Both the position numbers and the translations under genes were made by a program. The notes under the pieces were generated by a model that made no database searches, was not told the origin of the DNA, and saw nothing but the letters and a program-made list of their open reading frames with translations. A stretch of DNA of 64,000 nucleotides from Thermosediminibacter oceani DSM 16646 (GTDB taxonomy: Bacteria; Bacillota; Thermosediminibacteria; Thermosediminibacterales; Thermosediminibacteraceae), in NCBI RefSeq assembly GCF_000144645.1, contig NC_014377.1, positions 930,001-994,000 of the forward strand, written 5' to 3'. Of the stretch, positions 6,105 through 60,523 are shown one piece after another. Within the stretch, counting starts at the first letter, position 1. Every line of letters starts with the position of its first letter.

Positions 6105-6130
6105 GCAGAATTTTTTCAGGGGGATTTTGC

Positions 6131-43177: not shown

Positions 43178-43200
43178 AATTAATGTCAAATGAACAGCGT

Positions 43201-43277
43201 CTGGGTGTGGCGCAGCTTGGTAGCGCGCTAGAATGGGGTTCTAGAGGTCGGGGGTTCAAGTCCCCCCACTCAGACCA
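43201..43277 (+). tRNA. tRNA-Pro(GGG), intact at the left end of the integrated element
   Basis: A full cloverleaf: acceptor CTGGGTG with CACTCAG (one G-U), D-stem GCGC, anticodon stem CTAGA/TCTAG with loop ATGGGGT, T-stem GGGGG/CCCCC with TTCAAGT, encoded CCA. The anticodon is GGG, reading CCC and CCU. Its 3' 45 bases (43233-43277) are the attachment core; integration restored a complete tRNA, and a copy of the core lies at 60479. Confidence 0.97.
43233..43277 (+). repeat. attL core, 45-bp direct repeat
   Basis: From the anticodon loop (ATGGGG) to the CCA end, this 45-bp stretch is identical to 60479-60523. The bases on both sides differ (A against C before, AAAA against TTTG after), which fixes the repeat limits. 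Confidence 0.95.
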
Positions 43278-43363
43278 AAACCAATAAAATCAAGGCTTTG
43301 AAGGCAATAATAGGACAACGAAAATAAAGTAGGTTTTTAAAACCTATCAGGCAGAACGGTAAG

Positions 43364-43420
43364 CCACTTGCTTTCGGTTGTGTAAAAGACAATCGAAGGC
43401 AGGTGGTTTTTATTTTATTT
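43364..43420 (+). terminator. Long hairpin with T-run overlapping the integrase 5' end
   Basis: The 18-nt arms 43364-43381 and 43389-43406 pair with a few G-U wobbles across a 7-nt loop and are followed by TTTTTATTTTATTT. It has terminator form and covers the only candidate ribosome site (AGGTGG) and GTG of the integrase frame. The rest of 43278-43363 holds a short palindrome (43330-43346, TAGGTTTT/AAAACCTA) and no gene. Confidence 0.7.
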
Positions 43421-44335
43421 AAATTCGCTATTCAGGATTTTCTTGACGATCGCAAATTTAAAAACTTATCACCAGAGACTTTGAAAGGTTACGAAATTAC
43501 GCTAAAAGAATTCCACAATTACTGCACCGACAATAACCTAATAGACACTTCGGATATTACACCTAGAGTTATAAAAAATTACCTCATCCACTGCCAAAAT
43601 GAGCGAAGCAATAATCCAGTAACACTAAATCACAAAATACGCAATCTGAAAATTTTCTTTAACTACCTAGAAGAAATCGAAATATACGATGAAAAAAACA
43701 ATCCAGCGAAGCCAATTCCTTATTTAAAAGAGGATGTAAAAATTGAAGTATTTACCGACTATCAAATCAGGCAAATGCTTACCTATTACCGAAGGCTTAA
43801 AACCAGAGATAAAGCGTTTTGGGCTTATAGAGATTATACCATCATTGTAACACTATTAGGCACAGGCATAAGACTTGGCGAACTTGTAAACCTTCAATGG
43901 CGACACATAGATTTTGTAAATCAAGTAATGACAATTTTTGGGAAAAAACGTATCCAAAGAAGTATTCCGCTAACCGAAAAATTAGTGAAAGAATTAGCGG
44001 AGTTTAAGGTATTTTGTGAGCGATATTTTGGTAAATTGAACGATTATGTTTTTGTCAATAGCAAAAATGAACCAATGACTGCGGATGCAGTTAAGTGTAT
44101 GTTTAAGAGGTTAAAAGAGATAATGAATTTTCGAGACGTTCGGCTTTCCGCACATACATTTAGGCACACATTCGCTCACCGCTTCCTAATGAATGGCGGG
44201 GATGTGTTTTCGCTACAAAAAATTTTAGGGCACAGCAAGATAGAGATGACTATGCGTTACGTTGCTTTATGGGGGACGGCCTTAAAAGAGCAAAACGAGA
44301 AATATAATCCCCTCAGTAAATTGGATTTTGTGTAA
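43403..44335 (+). CDS. int: Tyrosine-family site-specific integrase
   Basis: Integrates and excises the element at tRNA-Pro. An N-terminal SAM-like core-binding domain (about 10-100) is followed by the catalytic domain with R157 (GTGIRLGEL), H251 and R254 (HTFRH), H277 (LGHSKI) and nucleophile Y286 (MRYVAL). All key residues are present. The start is unclear: GTG 43403 lies inside the right arm of a terminator-like hairpin with poor spacing, and the codon 5 bp past AGGTGG is ATT 43412. It overlaps the next frame's upstream extension only. Confidence 0.92.
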   Translation: MVFILFKFAIQDFLDDRKFKNLSPETLKGYEITLKEFHNYCTDNNLIDTSDITPRVIKNYLIHCQNERSNNPVTLNHKIRNLKIFFNYLEEIEIYDEKNNPAKPIPYLKEDVKIEVFTDYQIRQMLTYYRRLKTRDKAFWAYRDYTIIVTLLGTGIRLGELVNLQWRHIDFVNQVMTIFGKKRIQRSIPLTEKLVKELAEFKVFCERYFGKLNDYVFVNSKNEPMTADAVKCMFKRLKEIMNFRDVRLSAHTFRHTFAHRFLMNGGDVFSLQKILGHSKIEMTMRYVALWGTALKEQNEKYNPLSKLDFV

Positions 44336-44348
44336 GGGAGCAAGGAAA

Positions 44349-45194
44349 ATGCAGGAGGCTAATTTTTACAAGATAAATGAGATTGACAATATGCAATTTT
44401 TGATAATTCCAAAAACGCTTTTCACGAGCGAAAATTATCGTGATTTGCTTGACGGTGCTAAATTACTGTACGCCGTCTTGTTGGAAAGGATGCAATTATC
44501 CAAAAAGAATGGGTGGGCGGACGAAAACGGAAACGTGTATATAATCTACCCTAGAGAAGAAATTGCAAATTTTATGAAAATTAGTATAAAAACTGTTGTA
44601 AGATACATGAAAGCACTCAAGGAATATGGGCTAATTCTTGAAAAGCGACAAGGACTTTCCAGACCTAATATCATCTATGTACTTAAGCCATATTCCAGAG
44701 ATGAAGAATTTTTCACCTCCAGAGTGGACAGCGATGTCCATTCAAGAATGGACAATATGACAAAAACTGAATGGACAAATTTACCACCAAATCATACTAA
44801 TATGAATCATACTGAGATAAATAAAAAAAATAACACAAACACCCTTGTGGATAAGTTTCACGCTATCACTGGAAGAAGGAATTGGAAATTATTTGTTATT
44901 CTTTTAAAAAAATATTCTTATGATTACATCCTTGAAAAACTAAATTACATGGAAATGTTTGCCAAAAGCCACCTAATACGAAACTTCGAAGGATTTTTGG
45001 CGAGTGCTTTACGTGATAATTACATGACTGTTGCTCAAAAGATCGAAAAAACATCAAGGAAAGTCTTACTCGAAACTTACCAGAAATTGGAATATTATCG
45101 TAGTGTAAAACCTGCGTCAAAAGAAGTGGCTTTGGCATGGATTACTTTGATAAAAAACCAACTAACAGGAGGTATGGAGGTATGCCCATGTTAA
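44349..45194 (+). CDS. RepA_N-family replication initiator
   Basis: The N-terminal 100 residues have the RepA_N signature: FYKINEIDNMQFLIIPKTLF, a DGAKLLYAVLLERM helix and YPREEIANFMKISIKTVVRYM winged helix. A linker rich in N and T (about 130-165) is followed by a helical C-terminal domain. RepA_N proteins start theta replication of Firmicute plasmids and conjugative elements. ATG 44349 follows GGGAGCAAGGA. The linker DNA carries repeats and a DnaA box. With int, it suggests the element replicates after excision. Confidence 0.85.
   Translation: MQEANFYKINEIDNMQFLIIPKTLFTSENYRDLLDGAKLLYAVLLERMQLSKKNGWADENGNVYIIYPREEIANFMKISIKTVVRYMKALKEYGLILEKRQGLSRPNIIYVLKPYSRDEEFFTSRVDSDVHSRMDNMTKTEWTNLPPNHTNMNHTEINKKNNTNTLVDKFHAITGRRNWKLFVILLKKYSYDYILEKLNYMEMFAKSHLIRNFEGFLASALRDNYMTVAQKIEKTSRKVLLETYQKLEYYRSVKPASKEVALAWITLIKNQLTGGMEVCPC
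44725..44854 (+). other. Candidate replication origin inside the RepA_N gene
   Basis: TGGACA occurs at 44725, 44749 and 44772 and inverted (TGTCCA) at 44735; AATCATACT is repeated at 44790 and 44805 with 15-bp period; and a perfect DnaA box (TGTGGATAA, minus-strand TTATCCACA) lies at 44846-44854. In characterised RepA_N plasmids the origin lies within the rep coding region, as here. Function is inferred. Confidence 0.5.
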
Positions 45195-45412
45195 AGCTTG
45201 ACGAAAAGATAATATTTAGGGTGATCAGCGGCGAAACAAAAGTCCTCCAGTGGCTTGAAGAAAATTTCGATTTATCCCAATTTAAGGTTGAGGATTTTCC
45301 GCTATTTCCAGCAGGGAAAAGAATCATTGATAAAAACGGTGAGGAAATGGTTGTATTTTGGGATTTTTTATATGATAGGATTGAATACTTTTTCCAAAAA
45401 ATAAACCAATAG
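45188..45412 (+). CDS. Hypothetical small protein after RepA_N
   Basis: A 74-aa soluble protein (LKLDEKIIFRVISGETKVLQ) with an acidic, aromatic-rich C-terminal half. No family recognised. ATG 45188 lies 7 bp after GGAGG and overlaps the RepA_N end by 7 bp, so the two are translationally coupled. Confidence 0.6.
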   Translation: MLKLDEKIIFRVISGETKVLQWLEENFDLSQFKVEDFPLFPAGKRIIDKNGEEMVVFWDFLYDRIEYFFQKINQ

Positions 45413-45709
45413 GAGGTATAGGGTATGCTTATGCTGGAACTTGATGAAAGAAAAATTTTAGGAAGGCGGATCGAAGCACTAAAAGAAACATACCACAATG
45501 TATGTGGTAGGGAAGTGTCGGACAGGTTTTTGGAGTATTTAGAAACAATACCAATGTTTATTGCATAATTAAAATGGACAGAGTTGCAAAATAAAATCCC
45601 CACTTTTGCAACTCAAAAATCCCCAAATTTGCAAAGGTCATTGCAGGCACCCCTAAAAACCTTTACCCTTGTAGTTAGGGAAATCTTAACTGCAAGGGAG
45701 GATTGGAGG

Positions 45710-47233
45710 ATGCTCACAATGACCCATATTGATAATATCAGAAAAGCGTTCTTTATGAAAGGGCAAAATATCAGCGAGATAGCCCGGGAATTCCAAAAAG
45801 ACCGAAAAACTATACGCAAGTATATTTATCAAGAAGACTGGAACACCAGGGTTAAAGTTGAAGAAGTTAAACATACCTTCCCAAAACTCGACCCTTTCAA
45901 GGCGGATATAGATCAGTGGCTTGAAGAAGATAAAAAAGCTCGCAAAAAGCAGAGGCATACCGCCAAAAGGATTTATGACAGGCTCTGTGAAAAATACCAA
46001 GATAAGTTTAACTGTTCTTACCGCACCGTAGCAGGCTACGTAGCCATGAGAAAAAAAGAATTGTACCAGGACAACTCATGTCGTCTGCCGCTGGAACATA
46101 TCCCGGGTGAAGCGCAGGTGGATTTCGGTGAGGCAGACTTTTACGAAAACGGGACGCTGCATCACGGATTTTATCTGAACCTGTCGTTTCCCTACAGTAA
46201 CGTAGGATATACCCAGCTTTTCAAGGGAGAAAACCAGGAATGCCTGTTTCAGGGACTTAAGGACATATTTGAACACTTGGGGGGAGTACCCCGTAAGCTA
46301 TGGTTTGATAACGCCAGCACTATCGTGAAACTCTCGAAAAATGGAGAGCGCAAACTAACCGACGCCTTCCTGAGGTTCAAGCAGCACTATGGTTTTGAAG
46401 CGGTATTCTGTAACCCTGCTTCCGGCCATGAAAAGGGTAATGTGGAAAACAAGGTGGGATACCACCGGCGCAACTTCCTTGTCCCGGTCCCCAGGTTTGA
46501 AAAGCTGGAGGATTTTAACCGCGAACTTTTACGATTGTGCGACCGGGACATGCACCGCGAACACTACCGGAAGGAGGCATCCATAGCCGAACTTTTTAAT
46601 GAAGACCGTAAGGCTCTGCTTGAGCTGCCTACCGTTCCTTACGAGGTAGCCGGTTACATAACAGTCAAAACCAACGCCTACGCCAAATTCAGCTTGAACG
46701 GTGGAAAGCACCTATACTCTACCGCCCCCAAATACGCCAACAGCCGGGTGCTTGTAAAGATAACAGCCCATGAGGTCATACCGCTGGATGAGAGCCACCG
46801 GGAAATCGTGCGCCACCGGCGGCTTTACGGGGACAACAAGCAAGAAAGCATGGACTGGCTGCCATATCTTACCCAGCTTTCCCGCTGTCCGGGAGCCCTT
46901 AAGTATTCGGGAATATACAGCATGCTGCCGGACCCACTCCGGGAATACCTCGACGGCTTAAGCAAAAGTGAGCGCGGCAAAGCGCTCAAGGCTTTGGCTG
47001 TGCTTTGTACCAAAAGCAGTTTTGAACAGGCTGTGAACGCTGTAGCCGAGGCTCTCCTTTACGGAGTGCAGGATTTAGACAGCCTCGTAGCCATCCATAA
47101 CAGGATAACGGGTATAACCCCGCAGTTGGAGCCGGTAAAGATTCCGGAAGGGGTTCCTGAACTCACTGCATTCCGCTTCAATGCAGAAGACTATGACAAA
47201 GCCTTTCTGAAAGGCGGTGCCAATTTATGCTGA
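45710..47233 (+). CDS. istA: IS21-family transposase IstA
   Basis: A DDE transposase of 507 aa. N-terminal helix-turn-helix (MKGQNISEIAREFQKDRKTI) precedes the rve catalytic core with D138 (QVDFGEADF), D200 (WFDNAS) and E246 (GNVENK). ATG 45710 follows GGGAGG with 8-bp spacing; the frame extends upstream without a better start. It overlaps istB by 7 bp. Confidence 0.95.
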   Translation: MLTMTHIDNIRKAFFMKGQNISEIAREFQKDRKTIRKYIYQEDWNTRVKVEEVKHTFPKLDPFKADIDQWLEEDKKARKKQRHTAKRIYDRLCEKYQDKFNCSYRTVAGYVAMRKKELYQDNSCRLPLEHIPGEAQVDFGEADFYENGTLHHGFYLNLSFPYSNVGYTQLFKGENQECLFQGLKDIFEHLGGVPRKLWFDNASTIVKLSKNGERKLTDAFLRFKQHYGFEAVFCNPASGHEKGNVENKVGYHRRNFLVPVPRFEKLEDFNRELLRLCDRDMHREHYRKEASIAELFNEDRKALLELPTVPYEVAGYITVKTNAYAKFSLNGGKHLYSTAPKYANSRVLVKITAHEVIPLDESHREIVRHRRLYGDNKQESMDWLPYLTQLSRCPGALKYSGIYSMLPDPLREYLDGLSKSERGKALKALAVLCTKSSFEQAVNAVAEALLYGVQDLDSLVAIHNRITGITPQLEPVKIPEGVPELTAFRFNAEDYDKAFLKGGANLC

Positions 47234-47958
47234 AGGACGAAATCGCCGCCTGCTGTAAAGCATTAAAACTCAGCCGCAATCTAGTGGAAAACTGCGACAA
47301 GATCGAGGCTCAAAGCCATGAAGAATACCTGCTGAAGCTGCTAAGATTAGAACTGGAGCACAGAGACGCAAGCCGAAAGGACAGGCTTTTGAAAAATGCG
47401 GGCTTTTACACGATAAAGACCTTTGCCGGCTACATATTCGATGAAATCAAACTCCCGCAGGGGCTTACACCGCAGGACCTAAAAGATTGCAAATTTCTCG
47501 AAGAAAAGAAAAACCTGATCCTTTACGGCAACGTGGGAACCGGCAAAACCCATCTTGCCACCGCCATCGGTGTGGAGGCCTGTAAAAAAGGCTACAACGT
47601 AAAGTTTTTCCGCACTGCAGCGCTGGTAAACCGGCTGGTGGAAGCCCGGAAGGGAGGTGAACTTTCCGGGTTACTGAAACAGCTTTCCAAACCAGATCTT
47701 CTGATCTGCGACGAATGGGGCTATGTTCCTTTGGACCGCGAAGGAGCGCAGCTACTTTTTCAGGTGATTTCGGACTGCTATGAACGTCGCAGTGTAGTAA
47801 TTACCACTAACCTGGAATTCAGCCGCTGGGCGAGCATTTTCTACGATGAGCAGATGACAGCAGCAATGATTGACCGGCTAATACACCACAGTTACCTATT
47901 GATCTTTGATGGTCAAAGCTACCGGATGAGGCAATCACTCATGAGGCAATTAAGTTAA
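47227..47958 (+). CDS. istB: IS21-family helper ATPase IstB
   Basis: A DnaA/DnaC-like AAA+ ATPase that directs IstA to target DNA. Walker A is GNVGTGKTH (101-109), Walker B LLICDEWGY, and sensor region ITTNLEFSRW. At 243 aa it is complete. It starts inside the istA 3' end. Confidence 0.96.
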   Translation: MLKDEIAACCKALKLSRNLVENCDKIEAQSHEEYLLKLLRLELEHRDASRKDRLLKNAGFYTIKTFAGYIFDEIKLPQGLTPQDLKDCKFLEEKKNLILYGNVGTGKTHLATAIGVEACKKGYNVKFFRTAALVNRLVEARKGGELSGLLKQLSKPDLLICDEWGYVPLDREGAQLLFQVISDCYERRSVVITTNLEFSRWASIFYDEQMTAAMIDRLIHHSYLLIFDGQSYRMRQSLMRQLS

Positions 47959-48128
47959 CATAAAAATTCCCCACCGGTGCCTGGGGAAAAACCTTTGCAA
48001 AAATGGGGAATTTCCTCTTGCAAAAAACAATACCAACGACGAGAGAAAAGATTGAATTAGTAAATTTTTACATCAATGAAATAATGGAGATATACTATCA
48101 AGACAAATACTTAGAAGCAAGATTGGGT

Positions 48129-48156
48129 TAGAGGCTCTAAGCCTCTATTTTTTCGG
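48129..48156 (+). terminator. Terminator after the interrupted small gene
   Basis: TAGAGGC and GCCTCTA pair around TCTAA, followed by TTTTTT; the stem includes the stop codon of the interrupted gene. Confidence 0.8.
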
Positions 48157-48220
48157 ATAATTGCAGGAAAATCGAGGAAAAACGCTCAAAAAATTGCTAT
48201 TATATTAATGGAGGGGTATA

Positions 48221-48364
48221 ATCAAAGCACGTGGTAAGTATAAAACCTGTTCTAAATGTGGGAAAGTGTATCTGGCAACTAGAAAATATTTTAGTCCAGA
48301 CCGCAGAAACAAAGATGGATTACAAAGTATTTGTAAAAAATGTGATAATTACAGGAAAAAGTGA
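48221..48364 (+). CDS. Small four-cysteine zinc-ribbon protein, start codon unclear
   Basis: A frame of about 47 residues contains CSKCGKVYLATRKYF and DGLQSICKKCDNY: two CxxC pairs about 31 residues apart, the layout of small phage zinc-ribbon proteins related to HNH-associated domains. GGAGGGG (48210-48216) precedes it, but the in-frame codons nearby are ATA 48218 and ATC 48221; there is no ATG, GTG or TTG. Either a rare start or a decayed gene. Confidence 0.5.
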   Translation: MKARGKYKTCSKCGKVYLATRKYFSPDRRNKDGLQSICKKCDNYRKK

Positions 48365-48457
48365 TAATTTTTTCAAAAAAAATGTCTTTTAAATATATGA
48401 GGGAGAATTGCAGCCCACTCATTCACTAAAAACTTTTACAATCTTGGTGTTTTTATC

Positions 48458-48490
48458 AGGAGGTTTCATGCCTCTTTTTTTATTTTTTTT
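48458..48490 (+). terminator. Terminator-like hairpin, or short leader ORF, before the structural genes
   Basis: AGGAGG and CCTCTT pair around TTTCATG, followed by long T-runs. The same bases also make a ribosome site and ATG (48468) for a 16-codon frame (MPLFLFFLKFKNLNWRR) whose TGA (48516-48518) overlaps the next gene's GGAGGTGA, so a coupled leader peptide is an alternative reading. Confidence 0.55.
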
Positions 48491-48523
48491 AAAATTCAAA
48501 AATTTGAATTGGAGGTGATTTAC

Positions 48524-48877
48524 ATGGCTGAAATCAGACCAGAGGGTTATCAAAATATCAGGGACTATATGCAAGCAAACTGGCAATACATAGAATTGCG
48601 TGATGATGCAGGAAATCCTATTTTGAGGCTTTCTCCTGCTGATCCTAGAGTAACATGGACGCATAATGCAGGAGATCAAACCCTAAAATTACAAATCATA
48701 GTTAAAGGCAGTGATGCAGATATTACCCTACCCACAACCTTTGCTTCTAGTGCTATATACAATGTAGCCACAGGTGGAAATCCTTTTAGCGTGGAAACCT
48801 TCACGCCGTTTACGATGGAAAACGAGAACGACGAATTAACAGTTATCCATGAAATACAAGTGCCGCAGGTAGTTTAA
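48524..48877 (+). CDS. Phage-type structural protein of unknown role
   Basis: A 117-aa protein of mostly beta character (LRLSPADPRVTWTHNAGDQ, LKLQIIVKGSDADITLP). I recall similar proteins beside capsid or fibre genes of Firmicute phages but cannot assign a function. ATG 48524 follows GGAGGTGA. It heads a run of genes up to the scaffold and capsid, so a virion decoration or fibre base is possible. Confidence 0.55.
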   Translation: MAEIRPEGYQNIRDYMQANWQYIELRDDAGNPILRLSPADPRVTWTHNAGDQTLKLQIIVKGSDADITLPTTFASSAIYNVATGGNPFSVETFTPFTMENENDELTVIHEIQVPQVV

Positions 48878-48891
48878 GGCGGTGATTAAAC

Positions 48892-50136
48892 ATGCTTGGC
48901 AGCGGCACACAGACAGACCCTTATCGAATACAGACACCTGCCGATTTAAACGCAGTACGAAATAATTTAAGTGCATATTACGAATTGGCCAATGACCTTG
49001 ATATGGCTGGTTTCGGTAATTTTACGCCGATTGGCACTTCTTCAAGTCCTTTCACTGGACACTTCGACGGTAAAGGGTACAAAATTTTAAACCTAACAAT
49101 TAACGTTTCTGCCGCTAACGTTGGACTTTTTGGATATATCAATAATGGTGGTATAGTGCAAAACTTAGGGTTAGAAAATTGCAACATAACAGGCAACGCA
49201 GTAAACTATGTTGGTGGCATTGTAGGGTATTTATACAATGGTACAGTCCAAAATTGCTATACCAAAGGCAGTATAATAGGACAATATGGGATAGGCGGTA
49301 TTGTAGGTTGGTTTAATATTGGTATTATTCGCAATTGTTTTTCTCGCGCTAGTGTCACAGGGAAAGGCAGGGTAGGAGGACTTCTAGGACATGGTGTAAG
49401 TGCAAATGCAGTGGTAGAAAAGTGCTATTCTACCGGATTAGTGACAGTAACACCTGATCCGAACAATTATAATGGCGGTTTAGTAGGATCATACACCGTT
49501 ACGCCACCCGTCTTTGATTCATACTGGGACATCGAAACTAGCGGTCAGACCATTTCCGCTGGCGGTATAGGAAAAACAACCGCTGAAATGAAAAACCAAA
49601 GCACTTACGTGAATTGGGATTTTGCAAATGTATGGGGCATAAATGGCGATTACCCGTATCTGCGGATTTTTGGAGTGCCGGGGAAAAGTGGGAATATAAC
49701 TATTACAAGTTTTATCGAAACAATTTCAAGTGATACTTCGAAATTAATAAAAGGTAATAAAACAGGACAAAGTTTTATTAATAAATTTTACTCAAGTACT
49801 AGTAAAAGCACTAAAAAATATATATCAAGTTTCATAAAACCAATTTATTCCAGTGTAGAAAAGCAAGTAAGAACAGTAATTTCAAGGAAGGTTGATTTAA
49901 CTTCATACATTTTGCCTATTAATGGGAAGATAGAAAGAAAAATAAAATCAAATAAAGTAAATATTGCATATATAAAACATATATTTTCAAGTATTTTTGC
50001 AAAATTACCTTTGCTATTTTCGGGAGGAAAAGCAAGGGTATTTTATTTTGAAAATTTAAGTCATGCAGGTACGATTGAAAACCTTTCCAGAACAGGAAAA
50101 CTGGAAAACCTTTCGAAAGCGTGGTGGATAGAGTAA
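48892..50136 (+). CDS. GLUG-motif beta-helix protein, possible surface fibre
   Basis: The first 250 residues contain the repeats of GLUG-motif beta-helices (NVGLFGYINNGGIVQNLGLE, YVGGIVGYLYNGTVQNCYTK, GIGGIVGWFNIGIIRNC, RVGGLLGHGVSANAVVEKCY). The remaining 160 residues are Ser/Lys-rich with loose repeats (SFIETISS, SFINKFYSS, SFIKPIYSS) and end in three ENLS units. Such proteins are found as adhesins or as capsid fibres; no membrane anchor or signal is seen, which favours a virion role. It overlaps the next start by one base. Confidence 0.7.
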   Translation: MLGSGTQTDPYRIQTPADLNAVRNNLSAYYELANDLDMAGFGNFTPIGTSSSPFTGHFDGKGYKILNLTINVSAANVGLFGYINNGGIVQNLGLENCNITGNAVNYVGGIVGYLYNGTVQNCYTKGSIIGQYGIGGIVGWFNIGIIRNCFSRASVTGKGRVGGLLGHGVSANAVVEKCYSTGLVTVTPDPNNYNGGLVGSYTVTPPVFDSYWDIETSGQTISAGGIGKTTAEMKNQSTYVNWDFANVWGINGDYPYLRIFGVPGKSGNITITSFIETISSDTSKLIKGNKTGQSFINKFYSSTSKSTKKYISSFIKPIYSSVEKQVRTVISRKVDLTSYILPINGKIERKIKSNKVNIAYIKHIFSSIFAKLPLLFSGGKARVFYFENLSHAGTIENLSRTGKLENLSKAWWIE

Positions 50137-50411
50137 TGGCACTTGTAGGAGATACAATAAGGCTTTATGTGGAGTTTCGGAATTTCGAGAATGAAAAAAT
50201 TGATCCTTCTAATATAAACTTACAAATATTAGATGAACAAGGACAAGAGATAGAAAATATAACAATTGATTCTTCTAATAAATTAGACGTTGGTAAATAT
50301 TTCTATGACTATGTTGTCCCAGAAGGCACAGGGGATTTATATTTCGTGTTTTCTGGGATTTGTAATAATAAGCCAATCAAAGCAAAAGGTAAGTTTTCTA
50401 GAGAAGTTTAA
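50136..50411 (+). CDS. Small beta-sandwich-like phage protein
   Basis: A 91-aa protein resembling an Ig-like or BppU-type domain (GDTIRLYVEFRNFENEKIDP, then YFYDYVVPEGTGDLYFVFSG). ATG 50136 shares one base with the preceding stop (TAATG), a coupled start. It probably works with the GLUG protein on the particle surface; this is inference from context. Confidence 0.55.
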   Translation: MALVGDTIRLYVEFRNFENEKIDPSNINLQILDEQGQEIENITIDSSNKLDVGKYFYDYVVPEGTGDLYFVFSGICNNKPIKAKGKFSREV

Positions 50412-50414
50412 AAA

Positions 50415-50457
50415 TTTCTGCTTGCGGGAGCCAACCCGTAAAAAAGGTTAGCAGAAA
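50415..50457 (+). ncRNA. Structured RNA element before the scaffold gene
   Basis: TTTCTGCT (50415-50422) pairs with AGCAGAAA (50450-50457), and AACC (50433-50436) with GGTT (50446-50449) stacked on it, leaving an internal asymmetric loop with GCGGGAGCC. The right arm touches the scaffold ribosome site (GGAG at 50458). It lacks a T-run, so a cis-regulatory or processing role is more likely than termination. Confidence 0.45.
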
Positions 50458-50468
50458 GGAGAGGCATT

Positions 50469-50948
50469 ATGGAACTAAAAGAATTACTTGGCGAAGAATT
50501 ATTTAATCAGGTAATGGCAAAGGTAGGTGATCACAAAATTGATATAGTAAGCAATGGGCAATGGATACCGAAAAGCAAGTTTGATGAAGTAATTACTGAA
50601 AAAAATCAATATAAGGCACAAGTGGAAAAACTCTCGAAATATAAGCCAGTTGAAAAATCCGATGCAGAAAAGGCACTAGAGGAAAGAGAAAAGGCACTTT
50701 TCCAAAAAGAAGTGGAATTAATTTTAAAAGAACATGGGCTTGAAGATTTTAAGGATTTCTTTGTTGTTAATTCTATTGATGAATTAAAACCCAAAATAGA
50801 GGCATTTAAAAAGATTTTAGATAGCCAAAAACTGAATAATAGTTATAAACCTTCAGACCACAAAAATAATGACGCTTATTCCCGATATGCCAGCGAGAAA
50901 AACGCCGTTGGCATGATTGGGGCGAAACTTTCAAAATTATTTTCATAA
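50469..50948 (+). CDS. Phage capsid scaffolding protein (GP20/DUF4355-like)
   Basis: A 159-aa, strongly charged protein with a central coiled coil (EKNQYKAQVEKLSKYKPVEK, EKALEEREKALFQKEVELIL) and a short helical C-terminus, the layout of SPP1-type scaffolds. It lies 14 bp before the major capsid gene, as in other phages. Heads of this type need no protease, and none is encoded here. Confidence 0.78.
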   Translation: MELKELLGEELFNQVMAKVGDHKIDIVSNGQWIPKSKFDEVITEKNQYKAQVEKLSKYKPVEKSDAEKALEEREKALFQKEVELILKEHGLEDFKDFFVVNSIDELKPKIEAFKKILDSQKLNNSYKPSDHKNNDAYSRYASEKNAVGMIGAKLSKLFS

Positions 50949-50962
50949 GGAGGATGATTTAA

Positions 50963-51847
50963 ATGATAAAAACTGATTCTTTTACAAATCTAGAAAAAGT
51001 ATCTCTTGCCACAGAAATAGGGCTAGTAGCACCGACAGATACGCCGCTTTATTCTCTTATTCTCAATCTAGGACAGGTAGACCAGGCAACCTCACCTGTT
51101 GTGGTATGGCGTGAAAAAACACTGGATACCACAAATGACATTTCTGTCCCTGAAGGTGCTAATCCTGTTTTCTATCAGAGCAATAGAGCCGAAATATCGA
51201 ACTATTGTGAGATATTCCTGAAAGGCGTGGAAGTTTCTGGTAGTGCCAGTGCATCTTCCATAGCGGGAATACCTGACCTTATGGCTAGCGAAGTAGCAGA
51301 CAGGTTAGCAGAGATGAAGGTCAACATAGAAAAAGCGTTGATAAACGGTGTCAAGAATGATGGCAGCCAGACCCCCTACATACGGAGAATGGGAGGACTT
51401 ATTTCATTTGTACCTGAAGGCAACAAAGTAACTGGAGCAAACCTTGATGAAGCCAATTTTAAAGCCACAGTTAAGAAACTCTGGGAAAATGGACTGGGAA
51501 TTAACGAATATGTTGCTTTAGTAAATGCCGATCTCAAAGAAGCCATCGACGCTATATATGACGCTAAATACCAGTACATCGCACCCATGCAGGATAATTA
51601 TTTCGGACTTGTTGTAAGACGTGTTCAGACAAACTATGGTAATGTAAACATTATTCTTAATAGGCACATGCCTGTTGACAAGATGGTAGTTTTCGACCCT
51701 GCTTATCTCCGAATAGCGAATTTAAGAGAACCTGTTTTCGAACCTTTGGCGAAAACAGGCGATAGCGTCAAGGGACAGGTAGTTGCAGAGCTTACTTTGA
51801 AGGTATTGAGTCCAAAGGCTATCGCTATGTTTGAACTTACTGTGTAA
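50963..51847 (+). CDS. Major capsid protein, SU10-like (HK97 fold)
   Basis: A 294-aa protein of the SU10 major capsid family: N-terminal TDSFTNLEKVSLATEIGLVAPTDTPLYS, an E-loop-like region (VWREKTLDTTNDISVPEGAN) and a C-terminal domain (HMPVDKMVVFDPAYLRIANLREPVFEPLAKTGD, seen in parts). ATG 50963 follows AGGAGGATG. It is complete, with a strong terminator after it. It indicates that the element makes its own capsid. Confidence 0.85.
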   Translation: MIKTDSFTNLEKVSLATEIGLVAPTDTPLYSLILNLGQVDQATSPVVVWREKTLDTTNDISVPEGANPVFYQSNRAEISNYCEIFLKGVEVSGSASASSIAGIPDLMASEVADRLAEMKVNIEKALINGVKNDGSQTPYIRRMGGLISFVPEGNKVTGANLDEANFKATVKKLWENGLGINEYVALVNADLKEAIDAIYDAKYQYIAPMQDNYFGLVVRRVQTNYGNVNIILNRHMPVDKMVVFDPAYLRIANLREPVFEPLAKTGDSVKGQVVAELTLKVLSPKAIAMFELTV

Positions 51848-51899
51848 TAAAACTAACAGCAACATAAGCAATCCTGCACATTCCCTAGCACGCCAACAG

Positions 51900-51932
51900 G
51901 AGAGGGGATGATGCCGTCCCTTCTCTTTTTTT
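51900..51932 (+). terminator. Terminator after the major capsid gene
   Basis: GAGAGGGGA (51900-51908) pairs with TCCCTTCTC (51917-51925), 9 bp with one G-U, followed by TTTTTTT. Confidence 0.9.
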
Positions 51933-51971
51933 AAATTTCATTCAATTTTTTGCAAAAAGGAGGGGAGGAGG

Positions 51972-52160
51972 ATGGAAGAAAGGGAAATACTTATGCTGGA
52001 AAGAAGAAGAAAAAACATAAAACTTCGGGAAATAGCAAAAGCGATAGGATGTAGTATTTCGCTTTTGTCCAGGTGGGAGCGGGGAGAGTGTCACATAGCG
52101 CCGGAGAAATTGAGAAGATACAGAGAATTTTTGATAGGAGGTAATAACGATGGAAAATAG
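51972..52160 (+). CDS. Small XRE-type helix-turn-helix protein
   Basis: A 62-aa protein consisting almost entirely of one helix-turn-helix (KLREIAKAIGCSISLLSRWERG). It starts behind GGAGGAGG and overlaps the next gene by 11 bp. It is a candidate regulator of the element, comparable in size to excisionase or Cro-like proteins. It is transcribed with the late-gene strand rather than divergently, which is unusual for a repressor. Confidence 0.75.
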   Translation: MEEREILMLERRRKNIKLREIAKAIGCSISLLSRWERGECHIAPEKLRRYREFLIGGNNDGK

Positions 52161-52383
52161 AGACCTTTTCGGCGTTTCTTCGTTTTCGCTCGCTGCGTAT
52201 CTGAAAATTTTCGGCATAGAGCCAAAAGAAATTGTAAGAATAACTGACCGCCAAATAATATTTGTGTACGAGAGAGACAAAAAATTCGATGAAATACTTA
52301 CGCAATACAACAATGATGAATTTTTGAGGCAATATAAAAAGTATTATGCCGAATTACAAAACATAGCAAAATATGGAAATTAG
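52150..52383 (+). CDS. Small DUF5659-like protein (first copy)
   Basis: A 77-aa protein with the pattern FSVSS/FSLAAYLKIFG followed by a beta-strand pair (IVRITDRQIIFVYERD) and a helical tail. It resembles DUF5659 phage proteins and the one at 53150. Function unknown. It is coupled to the XRE gene. Confidence 0.5.
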   Translation: MENRDLFGVSSFSLAAYLKIFGIEPKEIVRITDRQIIFVYERDKKFDEILTQYNNDEFLRQYKKYYAELQNIAKYGN

Positions 52384-52488
52384 ATGAAGATGATTGATAC
52401 CGGAATGAATTCTTATTTCGTTATAAAAATTAACCAAATACAGACGCAGATTTGTGAAGTTTTTAAATACATTGAATTTTTACTGTAA
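52384..52488 (+). CDS. Possible 34-aa ORF
   Basis: ATG 52384 directly follows the preceding TAG. The product (MKMIDTGMNSYFVIKINQ...) has no recognised family and overlaps the end of a minus-strand gene by 9 bp; support is weak. Confidence 0.25.
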   Translation: MKMIDTGMNSYFVIKINQIQTQICEVFKYIEFLL

Positions 52489-52751
52489 TTGGTTTCTTTT
52501 TTTTGTATCGTATACGGATTTTATCCAGGTTATCAACCATCTAGTGGGTAAAACAATAAGGTAATAAATAATCCAACATATAGCCGACAGTACAAACCAG
52601 GCCCCAATAATTAAATTGATAATTCCCGAATAGGGTTCCAAGTCCAACCTGATAACGCATCCGTTATATCGATGTAGTAAGCGATAAAAATAAGACCTAA
52701 AAGTATGGATCCTATCAAGTATGCCTTTTGGCTAAGGCGTGATTTGTCCAT
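52480..52751 (-). pseudogene. Minus-strand small membrane protein with a frameshift
   Basis: From ATG 52751 behind AAAGGAG, the minus strand encodes KAYLIGSILLGLIFIAYYID and stops at 52611. In the next frame the protein continues (EPYSGIINLIIGAWFVLSA, WIIYYLIVLPTRWLITWI) to a stop at 52480. Together about 88 residues with two or three membrane segments. The ribosome site is strong, so this looks like a recently frameshifted gene; programmed frameshifting or sequence error are alternatives. Being opposite to all other genes, it may be a lysogenically expressed cargo gene such as an exclusion protein, which is speculative. Confidence 0.6.
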
Positions 52752-52849
52752 TAGTAATCTCCTTTCATTTATGGATTAACTTATTAATTTTGGGCAATTT
52801 GACTACTTAAAAACTAAAATTAATATAATATATCCAATTTTCTTAACAT

Positions 52850-52879
52850 ATTATAACATACTATATTGAGTTAAGTCCA
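52850..52879 (-). promoter_or_regulatory. Possible promoter of the minus-strand membrane gene
   Basis: On the minus strand TGGACT (52879-52874) and a perfect TATAAT (52855-52850) are 18 bp apart, about 100 bp before the start. The -35 is weak. Confidence 0.35.
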
Positions 52880-52932
52880 TATAATTGTGGTAAAAAGAGA
52901 GTTTTAAAAAATGGATGAGTTTACATTGAAGT

Positions 52933-52998
52933 GTGTTTATTAAACTGACCGACCATGAAAAACGCATTACTGCACTGGAAAAAACTGTTTATAAGTAA
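52933..52998 (+). other. 21-codon remnant and surrounding spacer (52880-53075)
   Basis: A GTG-started frame encodes FIKLTDHEKRITALEKTVYK, resembling the N-terminal part of XhlA-like phage lysis proteins, without a ribosome site. It may be all that remains of a lysis-region gene. Nothing else was found before the terminator at 53076. Confidence 0.3.
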
Positions 52999-53075
52999 AA
53001 TCGCCGCAAAAATTTAACAAAAAGTTATGTTTATAAATCCAAATCTCGAAGATATAATAATAATGGAAGGGGAAT

Positions 53076-53118
53076 TACCCAAAAAAGGAAATTTTTGGGT
53101 AGTTTTTCCTTTTTTGTT
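53076..53118 (+). terminator. Terminator before the small DUF5659-like gene
   Basis: TACCCAAAAA (53076-53085) pairs with TTTTTGGGTA (53092-53101), a 10-bp stem, followed by GTTTTTCCTTTTTTG. A TATAAT at 53053 lies upstream, so a short terminated RNA is conceivable. Confidence 0.7.
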
Positions 53119-53149
53119 TTTGTAAAAAAATCAAAAGGAGGTAATCCAA

Positions 53150-53347
53150 ATGCAAAAACAAAAGAAATGCAGAGTAATTTTAAGTCCACAATTGGCACGT
53201 ATGCTTTTAAGGCAGGGTTATAAGATTGTGGATATTGAACCTAACAAAAACCTCCCAGAACGAACAGTTTTTATTTTTGAAAATGCACCAGGTCTAGAAA
53301 AAATTATCGAGTATTACCGTAAAGAGAAAAGTTGTGTAAACGAATAA
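53150..53347 (+). CDS. Small DUF5659-like protein (second copy)
   Basis: A 65-aa protein with LSPQLARMLLRQGYKIVDIE, RTVFIFENAPGLEKIIEYY, the DUF5659 layout: helix, strand, strand, helix. Start behind AAAGGAGGT. It has diverged from the copy at 52150. Function unknown; it lies directly before the palindromic array. Confidence 0.6.
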   Translation: MQKQKKCRVILSPQLARMLLRQGYKIVDIEPNKNLPERTVFIFENAPGLEKIIEYYRKEKSCVNE

Positions 53348-53350
53348 AAG

Positions 53351-53479
53351 TTGACTTTACTTTTGATACGAATTTGTTACAAAAATAAAGTCAAGTTGAC
53401 TTTATTTTTGCTACAAAAATGTTACAAAAGTAAAGTCATCTCACTTTACTTTTGATACAAAAATGTGACAAAAGTAAAG
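53351..53479 (+). repeat. Three 45-bp palindromic units (iteron-like array)
   Basis: A direct half-site GACTTTAYTTTTGMTAC (53351, 53396, about 53441) alternates with its inverted form GTKACAAAARTAAAG (53376, 53421, 53465). Both series keep a 45-bp period, giving three imperfect palindromes. An AT-rich stretch (53480-53520) and an imperfect stem (53526-53556) follow up to the rep-like gene at 53601. This is the arrangement of a Rep-binding origin or a cooperative operator. Confidence 0.8.
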
Positions 53480-53600
53480 GGTATAAATAATAATTAATAC
53501 TACAAATATATACTAGTCTTATATAACCGATAAGGTTTCATTAAAAACCTATCGGACATTGTGTTTATGTAAAGCAAATTAAAAGCAAAGGAGTGTTTGT

Positions 53601-54413
53601 ATGAAAAAAATAAATATTCCTAACAAGTTAATTGAATCAAATAAAAGCAAAGAACTTGCATTATACTTTTTATTAGCCAGAAGAAGGACAATTGACTACA
53701 AAGTGTTTATTTCAATTAGTCAAATTCTTGTTGCTTTAGGTTGGCAAAGAAGAGACAAAAAATTTATATTGGAAACATTAGAATATTTTAAAAAAGATGG
53801 TCTTATACTTGAATACGTCTTTGATGATAACGAATTAGAAATAACTTTATCAGAAAATATAGGTGCGTATACAAGATTTTATATAGATGACTTTGAGTTG
53901 CTCAAAAGATTAGGATATAAAATATTTCATGTGTATTGTTTTATACAACGATTTGCAAACGATGGAGTGGCTTATTTTAGTTATGAATATTTAGAAAAAG
54001 CAACACAAATGAGTACTAAAACATTTTCCGAGACTATTAAAATTCTGGAGGCTTTAGGTATGCTTGAATCGTATTATCAAGGATGGGTATATTCGGAAAA
54101 GTACAAAAAAAATATCAGAAAAAATAATGAGTATGAAATTAATATTGATAAAAAACTGGAATTTATCAATAAGCCAATAGAAGAATCTATAAAAATATTA
54201 AACGAAATAAAAAGAAAAATCAATAACCCCCTAACCCCCCAAATTCCGGCGAACCCCCCTTCCCCCCAGGATAGCGAATATGGCGAAATACCAAAGGGAG
54301 CGTGGGAGTTAGAAAAGGAAATAGAAATTTTTAAATTTAGTTATCAGAAAAAACAAAAACCTAAACCTGAACCAGAACCTGAAACAATAGTAATTAATCT
54401 TAACAATATCTAG
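53601..54413 (+). CDS. Winged-helix replication-initiator-like protein
   Basis: A 270-aa protein with two tandem winged-helix-like regions (about 5-85 and 105-170: FISISQILVALGWQRRDKKF and FSYEYLEKATQMSTKTFSETI), a Pro-rich linker (NNPLTPQIPANPPSPQ) and a charged tail. It resembles plasmid Rep or phage replisome-organiser proteins, without a decisive signature. Position 120 bp after the palindromic array supports a Rep or array-binding role. A terminator overlaps its stop. Confidence 0.6.
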   Translation: MKKINIPNKLIESNKSKELALYFLLARRRTIDYKVFISISQILVALGWQRRDKKFILETLEYFKKDGLILEYVFDDNELEITLSENIGAYTRFYIDDFELLKRLGYKIFHVYCFIQRFANDGVAYFSYEYLEKATQMSTKTFSETIKILEALGMLESYYQGWVYSEKYKKNIRKNNEYEINIDKKLEFINKPIEESIKILNEIKRKINNPLTPQIPANPPSPQDSEYGEIPKGAWELEKEIEIFKFSYQKKQKPKPEPEPETIVINLNNI

Positions 54414-54443
54414 CAAGGGTAATTTCCACCCTTGCTTTATTTA
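54412..54443 (+). terminator. Terminator after the Rep-like gene
   Basis: AGCAAGGGT and ACCCTTGCT form a 9-bp stem with a 7-nt loop, followed by TTATTTATT. Confidence 0.85.
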
Positions 54444-54479
54444 TTGCCAAACAAAAAATAAACAAAGGAGAGAAGCAAA

Positions 54480-55259
54480 ATGAAAGCAGAATACCGAGAA
54501 AAATTTCCAGAATGGGTTAATGAAGATAAATATTACGATCTGTGTCTTTCCAATGATCTCGATAGTTTATTTAGTTGCAAATTACTAGAAAAGATTAAAG
54601 GTTATAAAATAAAGTGGTTTTACAATTTCCATTGTCTTTATAAGGCAGAAGATGCAATTAACGAAGCAATAGCAGTAGACATAGACTTAATACGTGGCAA
54701 GTGTTGGGGTAATCATGTTACCCCTTTTTATAATCCTGAAGCAGCGAACTTGAATATAATTGATAGTATTAGCCACGAAAATTACTTCGATAAGTATGCA
54801 GGAAGCACATTGCTTGAAATTTGGAGTTACTATGATATACCTTTACCCCAAAGCGAAGAAGCCAAAATGATTTTGTTGGCTATTGATAGTTTTTATCTCG
54901 GTTTTTATTCGAATTATTTGAATGATATTCTTGCTAATGCTCATTATATGCAAGTTTTAGAATTACGAGAGTTACAAAAAATTTTATACAAGTATAAATC
55001 CAAAGATTTTGAAGAAATAAAACGTAAATATAACCTATACGGAAAAATTTGGATAGATGAGAACAAAAAATTAGCAAGCGACATAAGGCTTGCCGAATTG
55101 AGTGAGATTTTCGATTTAGACCTAACGTTACCAAGTGAAGAATTTTCCTCCCATTATTATTTTACACCTCAAACCACCAAAATATCAACACCCGGTGGAA
55201 AAATTTTTTCGGCGGCTTTAGTGGGCAGAAACAAAATAAAATATTCGGTGGTGGCTTAA
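54480..55259 (+). CDS. DHH-like phosphoesterase-like protein (tentative)
   Basis: A 259-aa cytosolic protein. SNDLDSLFSCKLL near residue 29 and AVDIDLIRGKCWGNHVTPF near 65-85 recall the first metal-binding motifs of DHH phosphoesterases, with a following YAGSTLLEIWSYYDIPLP helix like the DHH domain. A DHHA1 domain is not obvious. It could be a nuclease or nucleotide phosphodiesterase. It opens the packaging-gene run (starts behind AAAGGAGAG) and is followed 1 bp later by a small ORF. Confidence 0.45.
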   Translation: MKAEYREKFPEWVNEDKYYDLCLSNDLDSLFSCKLLEKIKGYKIKWFYNFHCLYKAEDAINEAIAVDIDLIRGKCWGNHVTPFYNPEAANLNIIDSISHENYFDKYAGSTLLEIWSYYDIPLPQSEEAKMILLAIDSFYLGFYSNYLNDILANAHYMQVLELRELQKILYKYKSKDFEEIKRKYNLYGKIWIDENKKLASDIRLAELSEIFDLDLTLPSEEFSSHYYFTPQTTKISTPGGKIFSAALVGRNKIKYSVVA

Positions 55260-55260
55260 A

Positions 55261-55374
55261 TTGTCTAAAAAACCTGATTTTAAAGAATTACTCAAACAAT
55301 GGAAAAAACAGGCAGAGGAAAATTTGAAGGAATTAAATAAACGTAACCAAACAAAAAGGAGGAATAGAAAATGA
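55261..55374 (+). CDS. 37-aa charged protein before the small terminase
   Basis: TTG 55261 begins a very basic helical product (SKKPDFKELLKQWKKQAEEN, ending TKRRNRK). Its TGA overlaps the next ATG (ATGA), a coupled arrangement that argues for real translation. No family recognised. Confidence 0.5.
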   Translation: MSKKPDFKELLKQWKKQAEENLKELNKRNQTKRRNRK

Positions 55375-55802
55375 TTACGTTAGAACAGGCAATAAAAAAA
55401 CTTCCACCAGACCTACAAGCCTATATGAAATTCAAGTTTCCTAATGACATTGCAAACAAGGGTATAGTTTATGCAAGTGAAGAAGAATTTCTGAAGGCTA
55501 GAGGCAAAAAAACAATGCTACGTTACAAACAATTCGAACAAACACCACATTATCAAGCGATTGTGACAATGATATACCTAAACCGAGCCATGAAAGATTT
55601 ACAGGAGATATACGATAAAGTAATTGAACAAGCGAAAAATGGAGATGAGAAGGCTATAAAATTATTCCTGCTTTTGCAAAAAGAGATGAAACAAAGTATA
55701 AAAGGAGTGGACAAACTCTTTTCAAAACGGTGGCTGAAAAATCAGAACTATGAAGAACCCGAAGAAGTTACAGAAGAGGATGACGGCCTAGTGTTAGACT
55801 AG
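55371..55802 (+). CDS. Putative terminase small subunit
   Basis: A 143-aa helical protein with an acidic C-terminus (EEVTEEDDGLVLD). It has no decisive motif, but it lies immediately before the large terminase and has the expected size; the small subunit recognises pac/cos DNA. ATG 55371 follows AAAGGAGG. Confidence 0.6.
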   Translation: MITLEQAIKKLPPDLQAYMKFKFPNDIANKGIVYASEEEFLKARGKKTMLRYKQFEQTPHYQAIVTMIYLNRAMKDLQEIYDKVIEQAKNGDEKAIKLFLLLQKEMKQSIKGVDKLFSKRWLKNQNYEEPEEVTEEDDGLVLD

Positions 55803-55812
55803 GCTTTTTTCT
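55786..55812 (+). terminator. Hairpin and T-run at the end of the small terminase gene
   Basis: GCCTAG and CTAGGC pair around TGTTAGA, which holds the stop codon, followed by TTTTTTCTTTTT. It may attenuate terL transcription, 28 bp upstream of that start. Confidence 0.7.
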
Positions 55813-55839
55813 TTTTGGCTGCAAAGGAGGTGACAACAG

Positions 55840-57423
55840 TTGCCGAAGTTAACTAAAGAAAAGAAACTTGAAATTATCCGCAATGACTTCCGTCTTTGGT
55901 GCAAAAATTTTGTGAAAATGGTGGACAATAAAGGGCAGGAAGTCCCTTTTATCCTTAATGAGCAACAATTGAGGTTGCTTGAAGGGCTGGAAAAATATAA
56001 CATAGTGCTTAAGTCAAGGCAGTTAGGAATTACGACCTTCTCGATAGCGTATTGTTTGTGGCTTGTTTGTAACAAACCGAACATTACCACAATGATACTT
56101 TCATATAATCTCGAATCTACGCAGCACATTTTCGAGCGATTAAAGGCTATGTATTACTCAATACCAGACCAGTACAAACCAAAAATAAAAAGAGATAATA
56201 AAATGGAGTTATTTTTAGAGAATGGCTCAAGGGTAATAGTAAAAATCGCCGGTAACAAAGAACTTGGCCGATCCTTTACATGCGAGTATATCCATTGCTC
56301 AGAATTTGCTTTCTGGACTGATTACGCACAGGAAAAAGGGTTGTTAGGACTGGAGAACTCCCTGGCTAAAAACCCTGATTCGAAGATTATTCTAGAGAGT
56401 ACCGCCAACGGATTAAATGAATTCTATAACATTTACCGTAAAGCCAGCAAAGGTGAAAGTAAGTATAAAGCCTTTTTCTTTAACTGGTTTGAAAATAAGG
56501 AGTTATTCCGTGAAGAATACAAACTTGCCGAAGAATGGTGGAAGGCTCAAAATCATGGGCAGCGTTTTTCAAGAAAAGATTTAGAAAAGGACGAAATACC
56601 GCTTTTCGAGGCCGGAGCACAATTACAACAAATATGTTGGCGTCGGTGGAAGTTGCAGGATATGACACTAGAACAATTCCAGCAAGAATATCCTAGCACA
56701 CCAGAAGAGGCTTTCCTTTCTACCAATGTAGGTGTTTTTTCTATGCAAAAAATACTAGAACGCATGAATTATCTACCCCTCCCCCTACAGAAAGAAGAAT
56801 TACAGGGTATAGAATTGCCGAAATCACTAATCCCTTACTTAAACAAGGGATTATTTTTATATAAACTTCCGAAAGCAAAAGAGCGTTACTATGGCGGTGT
56901 GGACGTTGCATCAGGAACAGGAGGGGTAAACGACTATTCGGCGGTAAGCATATTTGATACGAGTGGTGAACAGGTGGCGGTATTTTACCGCAATGATATA
57001 CCAGTATATAAATTCGCCGAAATAGTTAATGATTTAGGGCATTTCTACAATTACGCTTACCTTGTGGTTGAACGCAATGGTTATGGCTTACCATTACTCC
57101 AAAAATTACGTGAAGACTACCAATACATGAACCTATACAAACAACGCATTTTTAACGAAGCAGGAAGGAAAAAACACCAGTTGGGCTTTGCTACAACGAC
57201 AGCGAATAAACAATTGATAGTGCAGCGTTTCAAAGAACAATTCGAGACCGGCATGATTTTAATAAACGACCGTGAAACATTGGAGGAAATGCAAATTTAT
57301 CAGGAAAACGAAAAAGGCAGTTTAGGGAATAAAAGAGGCGAAGGCAAGCACGATGATCTTGTAATGGCTTGTTGCTTTGCGGTAGAAGGCTTATCTAAAG
57401 GCATCTACTATGTGGACATCTAA
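55840..57423 (+). CDS. Terminase large subunit
   Basis: The packaging motor, 527 aa. The ATPase half has the Walker A-like SRQLGITT (59-66) and a Walker B region (YIHCSEFAFW); the nuclease half has GVDVASGTGGVNDYSAVS, VVERNGYG and GKHDDLVMA, the three acidic motifs of the RNase H-like domain. All appear intact. TTG 55840 follows AAAGGAGGTGA. Function: packages element DNA into preformed heads. Confidence 0.92.
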   Translation: MPKLTKEKKLEIIRNDFRLWCKNFVKMVDNKGQEVPFILNEQQLRLLEGLEKYNIVLKSRQLGITTFSIAYCLWLVCNKPNITTMILSYNLESTQHIFERLKAMYYSIPDQYKPKIKRDNKMELFLENGSRVIVKIAGNKELGRSFTCEYIHCSEFAFWTDYAQEKGLLGLENSLAKNPDSKIILESTANGLNEFYNIYRKASKGESKYKAFFFNWFENKELFREEYKLAEEWWKAQNHGQRFSRKDLEKDEIPLFEAGAQLQQICWRRWKLQDMTLEQFQQEYPSTPEEAFLSTNVGVFSMQKILERMNYLPLPLQKEELQGIELPKSLIPYLNKGLFLYKLPKAKERYYGGVDVASGTGGVNDYSAVSIFDTSGEQVAVFYRNDIPVYKFAEIVNDLGHFYNYAYLVVERNGYGLPLLQKLREDYQYMNLYKQRIFNEAGRKKHQLGFATTTANKQLIVQRFKEQFETGMILINDRETLEEMQIYQENEKGSLGNKRGEGKHDDLVMACCFAVEGLSKGIYYVDI

Positions 57424-57441
57424 ATAAACGCTTTCAAAATT

Positions 57442-57490
57442 GCCGTTTAAACGGCTTTTTTAATTTTTGGGGTATAATTATATACCCCTT
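57442..57490 (+). terminator. Terminator after terL and a second palindrome
   Basis: GCCGT and ACGGC flank TTAA and are followed by TTTTTT (57442-57461). A second stem, GGGGTATA with TATACCCC, followed by TTTT, ends near 57490; it also contains TATAAT and could belong to a promoter for the portal gene. Confidence 0.75.
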
Positions 57491-57534
57491 TTAAAAAAAG
57501 ACGCTTTAAAAGTAATTTTAAGGGGGATAAAAAT

Positions 57535-58845: not shown

Positions 58846-59436
58846 GGGTATTTTGAAGAAATCCTATAATTCCGATAGGTTTAGTAGGAATTGAATGTTT
58901 CCGCACTTTCGGCCCTGTTACTCTATGAAAAAATTTCAACATATATCCGTTCTCAGACAGATTTTTAACATCAATATTCAGACAATTCCACAAATGGCAA
59001 TATATGGCAAACATAATTATTCATAACCCAGCATAAAAATAAAAAGCAAATTTTAAATAAAATCAGCGTTTTATAAAGCAAATTTACCAGATTTTAGGAA
59101 AATATTAGGGAAAACAATAAACGTTTACCGATAAAATAATTATATAAAATAAACCTCAATTCCTGAAAGCCTTGATACGACTGGCTTTGAGGGGGATAGA
59201 AGTAGTTTACATAAGATAGATTATCGGACGTTGTTTTTTATTTTGTGTTGTTTTGGAAATTATTAACAAATGCATAAGTATGAAGTCGATACCCCCTTTT
59301 GGAAAAAATTGGGTGCAGCATACCCTATTTTTCACGTGCGAAATTTTTTCCAAAAATCCCAAACTGCAAAAATTGCAGTTCAAAAATCGACTGCAAAATA
59401 TTGCAGTTTTATTTTTTAAAAAAAGGAGGAATATAA
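58846..59436 (+). other. 590-bp spacer with hairpins before the connector genes
   Basis: No convincing gene on either strand; a 63-codon minus-strand frame (59014-58823) has no ribosome site. It contains ACCGATAA (59127) and TATCGGACGTTGT (59222), matching the pair before the Rep-like gene; a 13-bp inverted repeat of TTTGGAAAAAATT around 59299-59353; and two stem-loops, AACTGCAA/TTGCAGTT (59362-59380) and ACTGCAA/TTGCAGT (59390-59407), the latter followed by TTTATTTTTT as a terminator. Its role may be regulatory, or it may be the scar of a deleted segment. Confidence 0.5.
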
Positions 59437-59766: not shown

Positions 59767-59777
59767 GCGGTGATAAT

Positions 59778-60478: not shown

Positions 60479-60523
60479 ATGGGGTTCTAGAGGTCGGGGG
60501 TTCAAGTCCCCCCACTCAGACCA
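60479..60523 (+). repeat. attR core, 45-bp direct repeat of the tRNA-Pro 3' half
   Basis: Identical over 45 bp to 43233-43277, from the anticodon loop to CCA. It lacks the 5' half of a tRNA, so it is not a gene; it marks the right end of the element. Confidence 0.95.

Follow-up and report, generated by a model that had tools for sequence, protein, structure and literature searches.

The DNA at 44722-44819 of the window, the whole 64,000-nucleotide stretch of Thermosediminibacter oceani DSM 16646 that was analysed, is considered with moderate confidence to be a RepA_N-type replication origin, lying inside its own initiator gene and expected to act when the surrounding island is excised. Such an excised island is probably able to copy itself, because the linker layout of the gene matches start sites in related plasmid and phage genes. 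Sequence evidence establishes what the gene is and how it is laid out, its resemblance to other RepA_N genes, where the island begins and ends, and the empty integration site in relatives.

The RepA_N gene and its linker repeats

The initiator gene, repA, occupies 44349..45194 on the forward strand and encodes 281 aa from the ATG at 44349, with an upstream TTG at 44328 as a possible alternative start. Its product matches phrog_7882 and PF06970 (E 2.9e-24, 85.2 bits against a curated cut-off of 30). Judged by sequence alone, residues 5-129 resemble the solved RepA_N domains 4pt7 (E 5.7e-27) and 5kbj (E 7.1e-27), and the N-terminal winged helix of RepA_N initiators is recognisable. In the C-terminal half, where a RepA_N initiator would be expected to have a DnaD-like domain, Pfam gives no match at E 0.01, and residues 131-274 align with one host ORF at 28% identity. 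Single-sequence AlphaFold models are poor both for RepA (mean pLDDT 42.9) and for a second initiator-like protein of the same island (41.2). RepA_N is uncommon among neighbours, being present in 9 of the 101 genomes searched with the window's own counted, and the RepA protein query found no relatives in the genome contigs. When RepA, the second initiator-like protein, and the integrase were used as single queries against viral contigs, only the window's own record was recovered, bar one integrase match at 27%.

A sequence-only reading of this DNA had pointed to TGGACA/TGTCCA repeats, two AATCATACT units, and a perfect DnaA-box word, all of which are present and span codons 126-169 of the 281-codon gene. 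Their placement in the linker-coding part of a RepA_N gene is upheld. TGGACA occurs three times (44725-44730, 44749-44754, and 44772-44777), spaced by 24 and then 23 bp, with TGTCCA at 44735-44740. The first TGGACA and the TGTCCA fall in candidate iteron 1 (44722..44743), a 22-bp imperfect palindrome with a 4-nt spacer and 9-bp arms complementary at eight of nine positions. Candidate iterons 2 (44746..44755) and 3 (44769..44778) are forward-strand half-sites of a 23-bp repeat, the third following 23 bp after the second. As just one of the three iterons is palindromic, this linker is among the weaker ones seen. The AATCATACT copies, at 44790-44798 and 44805-44813, belong to two 15-bp units (44790..44819, forward strand) which follow an N-x-T pattern with ACT as the Thr codon and form the candidate second part of the origin. 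Both copies encode N-H-T in frame, hence part of this repeat is protein-level. That RepA_N plasmids bear their origin at this place, as had also been proposed, agrees with pSK41, whose replication origin lies within rep and whose repeats are central in rep, in linker-coding DNA, according to excerpts of PMC5703833.

The DnaA-box word TGTGGATAA, the reverse complement of TTATCCACA, lies at 44846-44854 on the reverse strand and is probably a chance occurrence. Its suggested role as part of the origin is unsupported, since the box is absent from the 33 other RepA_N genes compared below and from all five usable held-out genes, and no held-out ORF that was recovered contains it. Somewhere in the gene, a perfect box also appears in 4.5% of shuffles of the window gene. 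The DnaA box was therefore dropped as an origin component. The sole other perfect DnaA-box word in the window is at 60296-60304, also in this element and close to its right end.

The host island

The gene is carried by a 17.2-kb insertion (43233-60523), which is well defined because three related genomes (G001, G003, and G004) show the empty site, with the same tRNA and the same right-hand gene and the element absent. The integration target is a tRNA-Pro(GGG) gene (43201..43277, forward strand), in which 43233-43277 forms the attL repeat. The attR site (60479..60523, forward strand) is an identical 45-bp copy of the tRNA-Pro 3' end. A tyrosine integrase gene (43403..44335, forward strand; PF00589 E 4.6e-34) precedes repA, and its homologue in the related island L035 also lies beside tRNA-Pro(GGG). 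An IS21-family insertion (istA/istB; 45555..48029, forward strand), with an apparent 7-bp target repeat and ends read by eye, apparently breaks a small ORF downstream of repA and leaves repA and int intact.

Further genes, all on the forward strand, encode a scaffold-like protein (50469-50948; below the Pfam cut-off), an SU10-type major capsid protein (50963-51847), a DUF5659 small ORF (53150..53347), a terminase large subunit (55840-57423), and an SPP1-type portal (57535-58845). PHROGs matches of the element ORFs include head, packaging, and connector families. No tail or lysis genes were found at E <= 0.01 among 18 element ORFs (>=60 aa, other than the IS21 genes), in a scan that very divergent genes could escape. 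Within these 18 ORFs the island has the gene content of a capsid-encoding satellite, namely capsid and packaging genes with tail and lysis genes absent, and it has its own integrase and att sites, as a satellite does. An IMG/VR record covers 43403-60350 as viral.

Other Firmicutes, among them Desulfocucumis, Fictibacillus, Bacillus, and Paenibacillus, have related islands, and together with the 17.2-kb island these may constitute a family of capsid-forming satellites. A search of 14 such capsid-island loci, several of which are incomplete, yielded no RepA_N, and from this absence RepA_N looks like a module special to the present island. The gene at 54480-55259 is 41-46% conserved in related islands and is without a Pfam or PHROG match. 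In L013, L035, and L036 its homologue is followed by differing genes, helicase-like or of unknown kind.

The proposal that the integrated element replicates as a plasmid holds in part. The linker position and two-part layout favour it; however, "plasmid" is overstated, as the element is a tRNA-located island with capsid, portal, and terminase genes. Replication as an episome once the island has excised would fit better than a stable plasmid life.

An intergenic array and a second initiator-like gene

Another candidate lies within the same island. The working origin might instead be an intergenic array at 53348-53481, used by the second initiator-like protein or by the distant RepA_N, with the linker repeats a weak or decayed remnant, although this is considered unlikely. 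The array consists of three ~45-bp palindromic tandem units with six alternating 13-bp half-sites. With a TRF score of 187 it outranks every other tandem array in the element, and it is A+T-rich (26% G+C). A half-site search allowing <=2 mismatches returned the six in the array, none elsewhere in the element, and two others in the window outside the element. It ends ~120 bp upstream of the second initiator-like gene (53601..54413, forward strand), which encodes an HTH_36 protein (PF13730 E 3.7e-8; phrog_270 E 1.2e-6). The excerpts of PMC5703833 describe a pfam13730 (HTH_36) domain replacing the RepA_N winged helix in pPR9, and the RepA_N satellite PLE is reported to have its iterons in a non-coding region (PMC7145576). 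In two of the seven related loci scanned (L035 and L036) the top tandem array precedes a DUF5659-like ORF and occupies DNA for which no genes are listed. The L035 array (12761-12991) has 87-bp units and the L036 array (6085-6203) 58-bp units, with unit lengths and consensus unlike those in the window.

The window array could equally be an operator or a set of hairpins. The arrays of the related loci also differ in unit length, consensus, and place, with the top array of L037 located elsewhere, and they are weak (score <=66) in L106, L013, and L108 and absent in L109. Furthermore, the second initiator-like protein is nearly without relatives in the collections searched, showing no match in the plasmid and phage collections and, across the 101 genomes, only itself and one borderline match (E 9.7e-4).

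Iterons in other RepA_N genes and chance expectation

The origin within repA can be compared with 33 other non-redundant RepA_N genes. These comprise a yardstick set of 12 usable genes from 14 plasmid and phage stretches, and IMG/VR loci. Two plasmid RepA_N loci, L020 and L021, whose gene is short or runs to the end of the record, were left out. Alignment A1 was too diverse for the IMG/VR scan, which used the narrower alignment A2 and gave 34 loci besides the window's own; six were dropped (ORF <200 aa or off the contig end) and seven near-duplicates of L027 were merged. The best internal repeat within codons 101-248 is significant against synonymous shuffles (p <= 0.05) in 28 of the 33 genes. 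In 24 of the 33, one of which is not significant, this repeat has a period of 22-24 bp or a multiple thereof (45-48 or 69), and in the five Lactobacillales plasmids the period is 54 or 63. A held-out set of chromosomal RepA_N genes gave the same period. Nine loci were taken, of which two were without an ORF, one was incomplete, and one had masked bases. In all five usable genes, of which two closely resemble each other, the period is 23 or 45 bp (p <= 0.01).

It is improbable, more so than use of the intergenic array, that the linker repeats of the window gene reflect nothing but protein coding, with chance recurrences of TGGACA in a low-complexity linker rich in N and T. A generic test, comparing the best ungapped direct repeat with synonymous-codon shuffles, favours this plain coding linker, being not significant in two runs (p 0.23 and 0.27). 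The in-frame N-H-T reading of both AATCATACT copies and the frequency of DnaA boxes in shuffles point the same way. A crude 130-bp measure, defined as a best 6-mer count >=4 plus a 9-mer pair, is passed by 0.48% of 5000 shuffles at the repeat site and by 3% of 500 anywhere in the gene. Across the window four regions reach this mark (33 of 6387 overlapping windows), and every one of these regions belongs to the element.

Against a chance linker stand the nulls specific to the layout of the family. An iteron layout test asks for three or more copies of an identical 6-mer, 21-25 bp apart, and for a reverse-complement partner at a distance of 2-9 nt. Of 5000 synonymous shuffles made from the window gene 6 satisfy it, and of 240 non-overlapping control segments none does; among 316 overlapping segments of the window, the only ones to pass are the four covering the linker repeats. 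Its settings are post hoc, picked after viewing the window gene and the first yardstick genes, and its figures are therefore only a guide; only 8 of the 33 other RepA_N genes pass. By this post hoc test the window gene does have semi-palindromic iterons at ~22-23-bp spacing in linker-coding DNA, weakly. Thus, the generic repeat test does not set the linker repeats apart from chance, but the family layout does, and their position and order agree with many other RepA_N linkers.

It is very improbable that RepA_N here serves another replicon, as a regulator or helicase loader, and that its gene holds no origin. In favour of such a role, the best PHROG family (phrog_7882, E 2.6e-26) is labelled "DnaD-like helicase loader"; against it, many phage or provirus members of the RepA_N family likewise bear linker repeats.

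A proposed second element of RepA_N origins

The comparison of RepA_N genes points to a second conserved part of their origins. N-x-T units every five residues stand beside the iterons in 22 of the 33 other genes and are absent from 11, under a loose rule (two or more units at five-residue intervals, each being N/S/D/K followed by any residue and then by T or N) and with the block of L018 doubtful. This 15-bp N-x-T/ACT pattern was derived in the present analysis and follows no published rule. In 21 of the 22 genes the start of the block falls no more than 6 codons ahead of, and no more than 19 codons past, the point where the best repeat ends, and in L027 block and best repeat are one and the same. 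Within the blocks Thr is encoded by ACT in 46 of 53 cases, compared with 71 of 300 outside them, with 20 genes higher and two lower. The corresponding Fisher p of 1.6e-18 is too small, because it ignores shared descent. The preference for ACT persists in L074 and L083, whose third codon positions are 67-76% G+C. A constraint at the level of DNA is suggested, because ACT is kept in these G+C-rich genes and synonymous sites are expected to be saturated at such protein divergence. Of the held-out genes, two of five have a block (ACT in 3/3 and 2/2 units) and three do not.

The window gene has a two-unit block, formed by the AATCATACT copies, with ACT in both units and a start five codons past the last TGGACA. 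Its order is that of other RepA_N linkers, with ~23-bp TGGACA sites whose first copy is palindromic, followed by two ACT units. It is tentatively proposed that a second DNA element is common to the origins of RepA_N replicons, namely an A+T-rich repeat of 15 bp with a consensus close to AATnATACTGAW, directly after the iterons. Such an element would be kept at the DNA level even in G+C-rich genes, so dictating the N-x-T repeats of the linker, and would be the common opening or loading site of plasmid, phage, and island RepA_N replicons, with the window element carrying a two-unit version. This idea is slightly less secure than the origin itself. No description of such an element was found in the portions of open-licence literature searched, a scope which did not extend to the main family review. 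A DnaA-trio reading of the units is not claimed, as their triplets do not fit the DnaA-trio consensus.

Proposed mechanism and implications

RepA binding, opening, excision, and replication are steps which we infer from these features. The 17.2-kb island would excise as a circle, and RepA_N, made from the int-repA pair, would bind the linker iterons of its own gene. In this process the N-terminal winged helix would contact the TGGACA sites, which are spaced by ~23 bp and begin with a palindromic copy. Next to them, the A+T-rich 15-bp units would then open, serving as the second part of the origin for opening or loading, and the C-terminal domain of RepA would bring in host replication proteins. 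The resulting circle would be replicated, and the head genes carried by the island might serve to package it.

If this is correct, a plasmid-type initiator with an in-gene origin forms a portable cassette next to an integrase, here serving a capsid-encoding island. From the comparison of RepA_N genes comes a practical rule for recognising origins of this kind, namely ~23-bp iterons followed by 15-bp ACT units in most but not all genes. The excerpts of PMC7145576 call the mode of replication initiation of the RepA_N family unknown.

Comparison with known systems

Intragenic RepA_N origins (PMC5703833), RepA_N satellites (PMC7145576), and RepA_N in integrated conjugative elements (PMC4701971) are already known from the parts of these sources consulted. 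The pSK41-type replicon of Staphylococcus shares with the window gene the RepA_N N-terminal domain and the central repeats in linker DNA. It differs in that the repeats of the window gene are weak and its setting is an integrated capsid-encoding island. A leader through which antisense RNA controls copy number is also reported for staphylococcal RepA_N plasmids (PMC5703833, PMC8129170). The window gene has no room for such a 5' leader, because only 13 nt separate the int stop from the repA ATG, and Rfam at gathering score identifies only tRNA in 43200-60600.

In TnGBS/Tn5252-type ICEs, which are likewise integrated, RepA_N presumably maintains the element after excision (PMC4701971); unlike in these, no conjugation gene was found among the element ORFs scanned with Pfam. 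The PLE of Vibrio cholerae, a phage satellite, resembles the island in being integrated and having a RepA_N initiator with iterons, but its iterons are in non-coding DNA and its integrase is described as a serine recombinase (PMC7145576). In addition, PLE reportedly remodels hijacked ICP1 coat proteins (PMC10945586), whereas the window island has its own capsid gene. The cfPICIs are satellites with their own capsids (PMC11389934), a trait in which the window island is similar, but its initiator is RepA_N.
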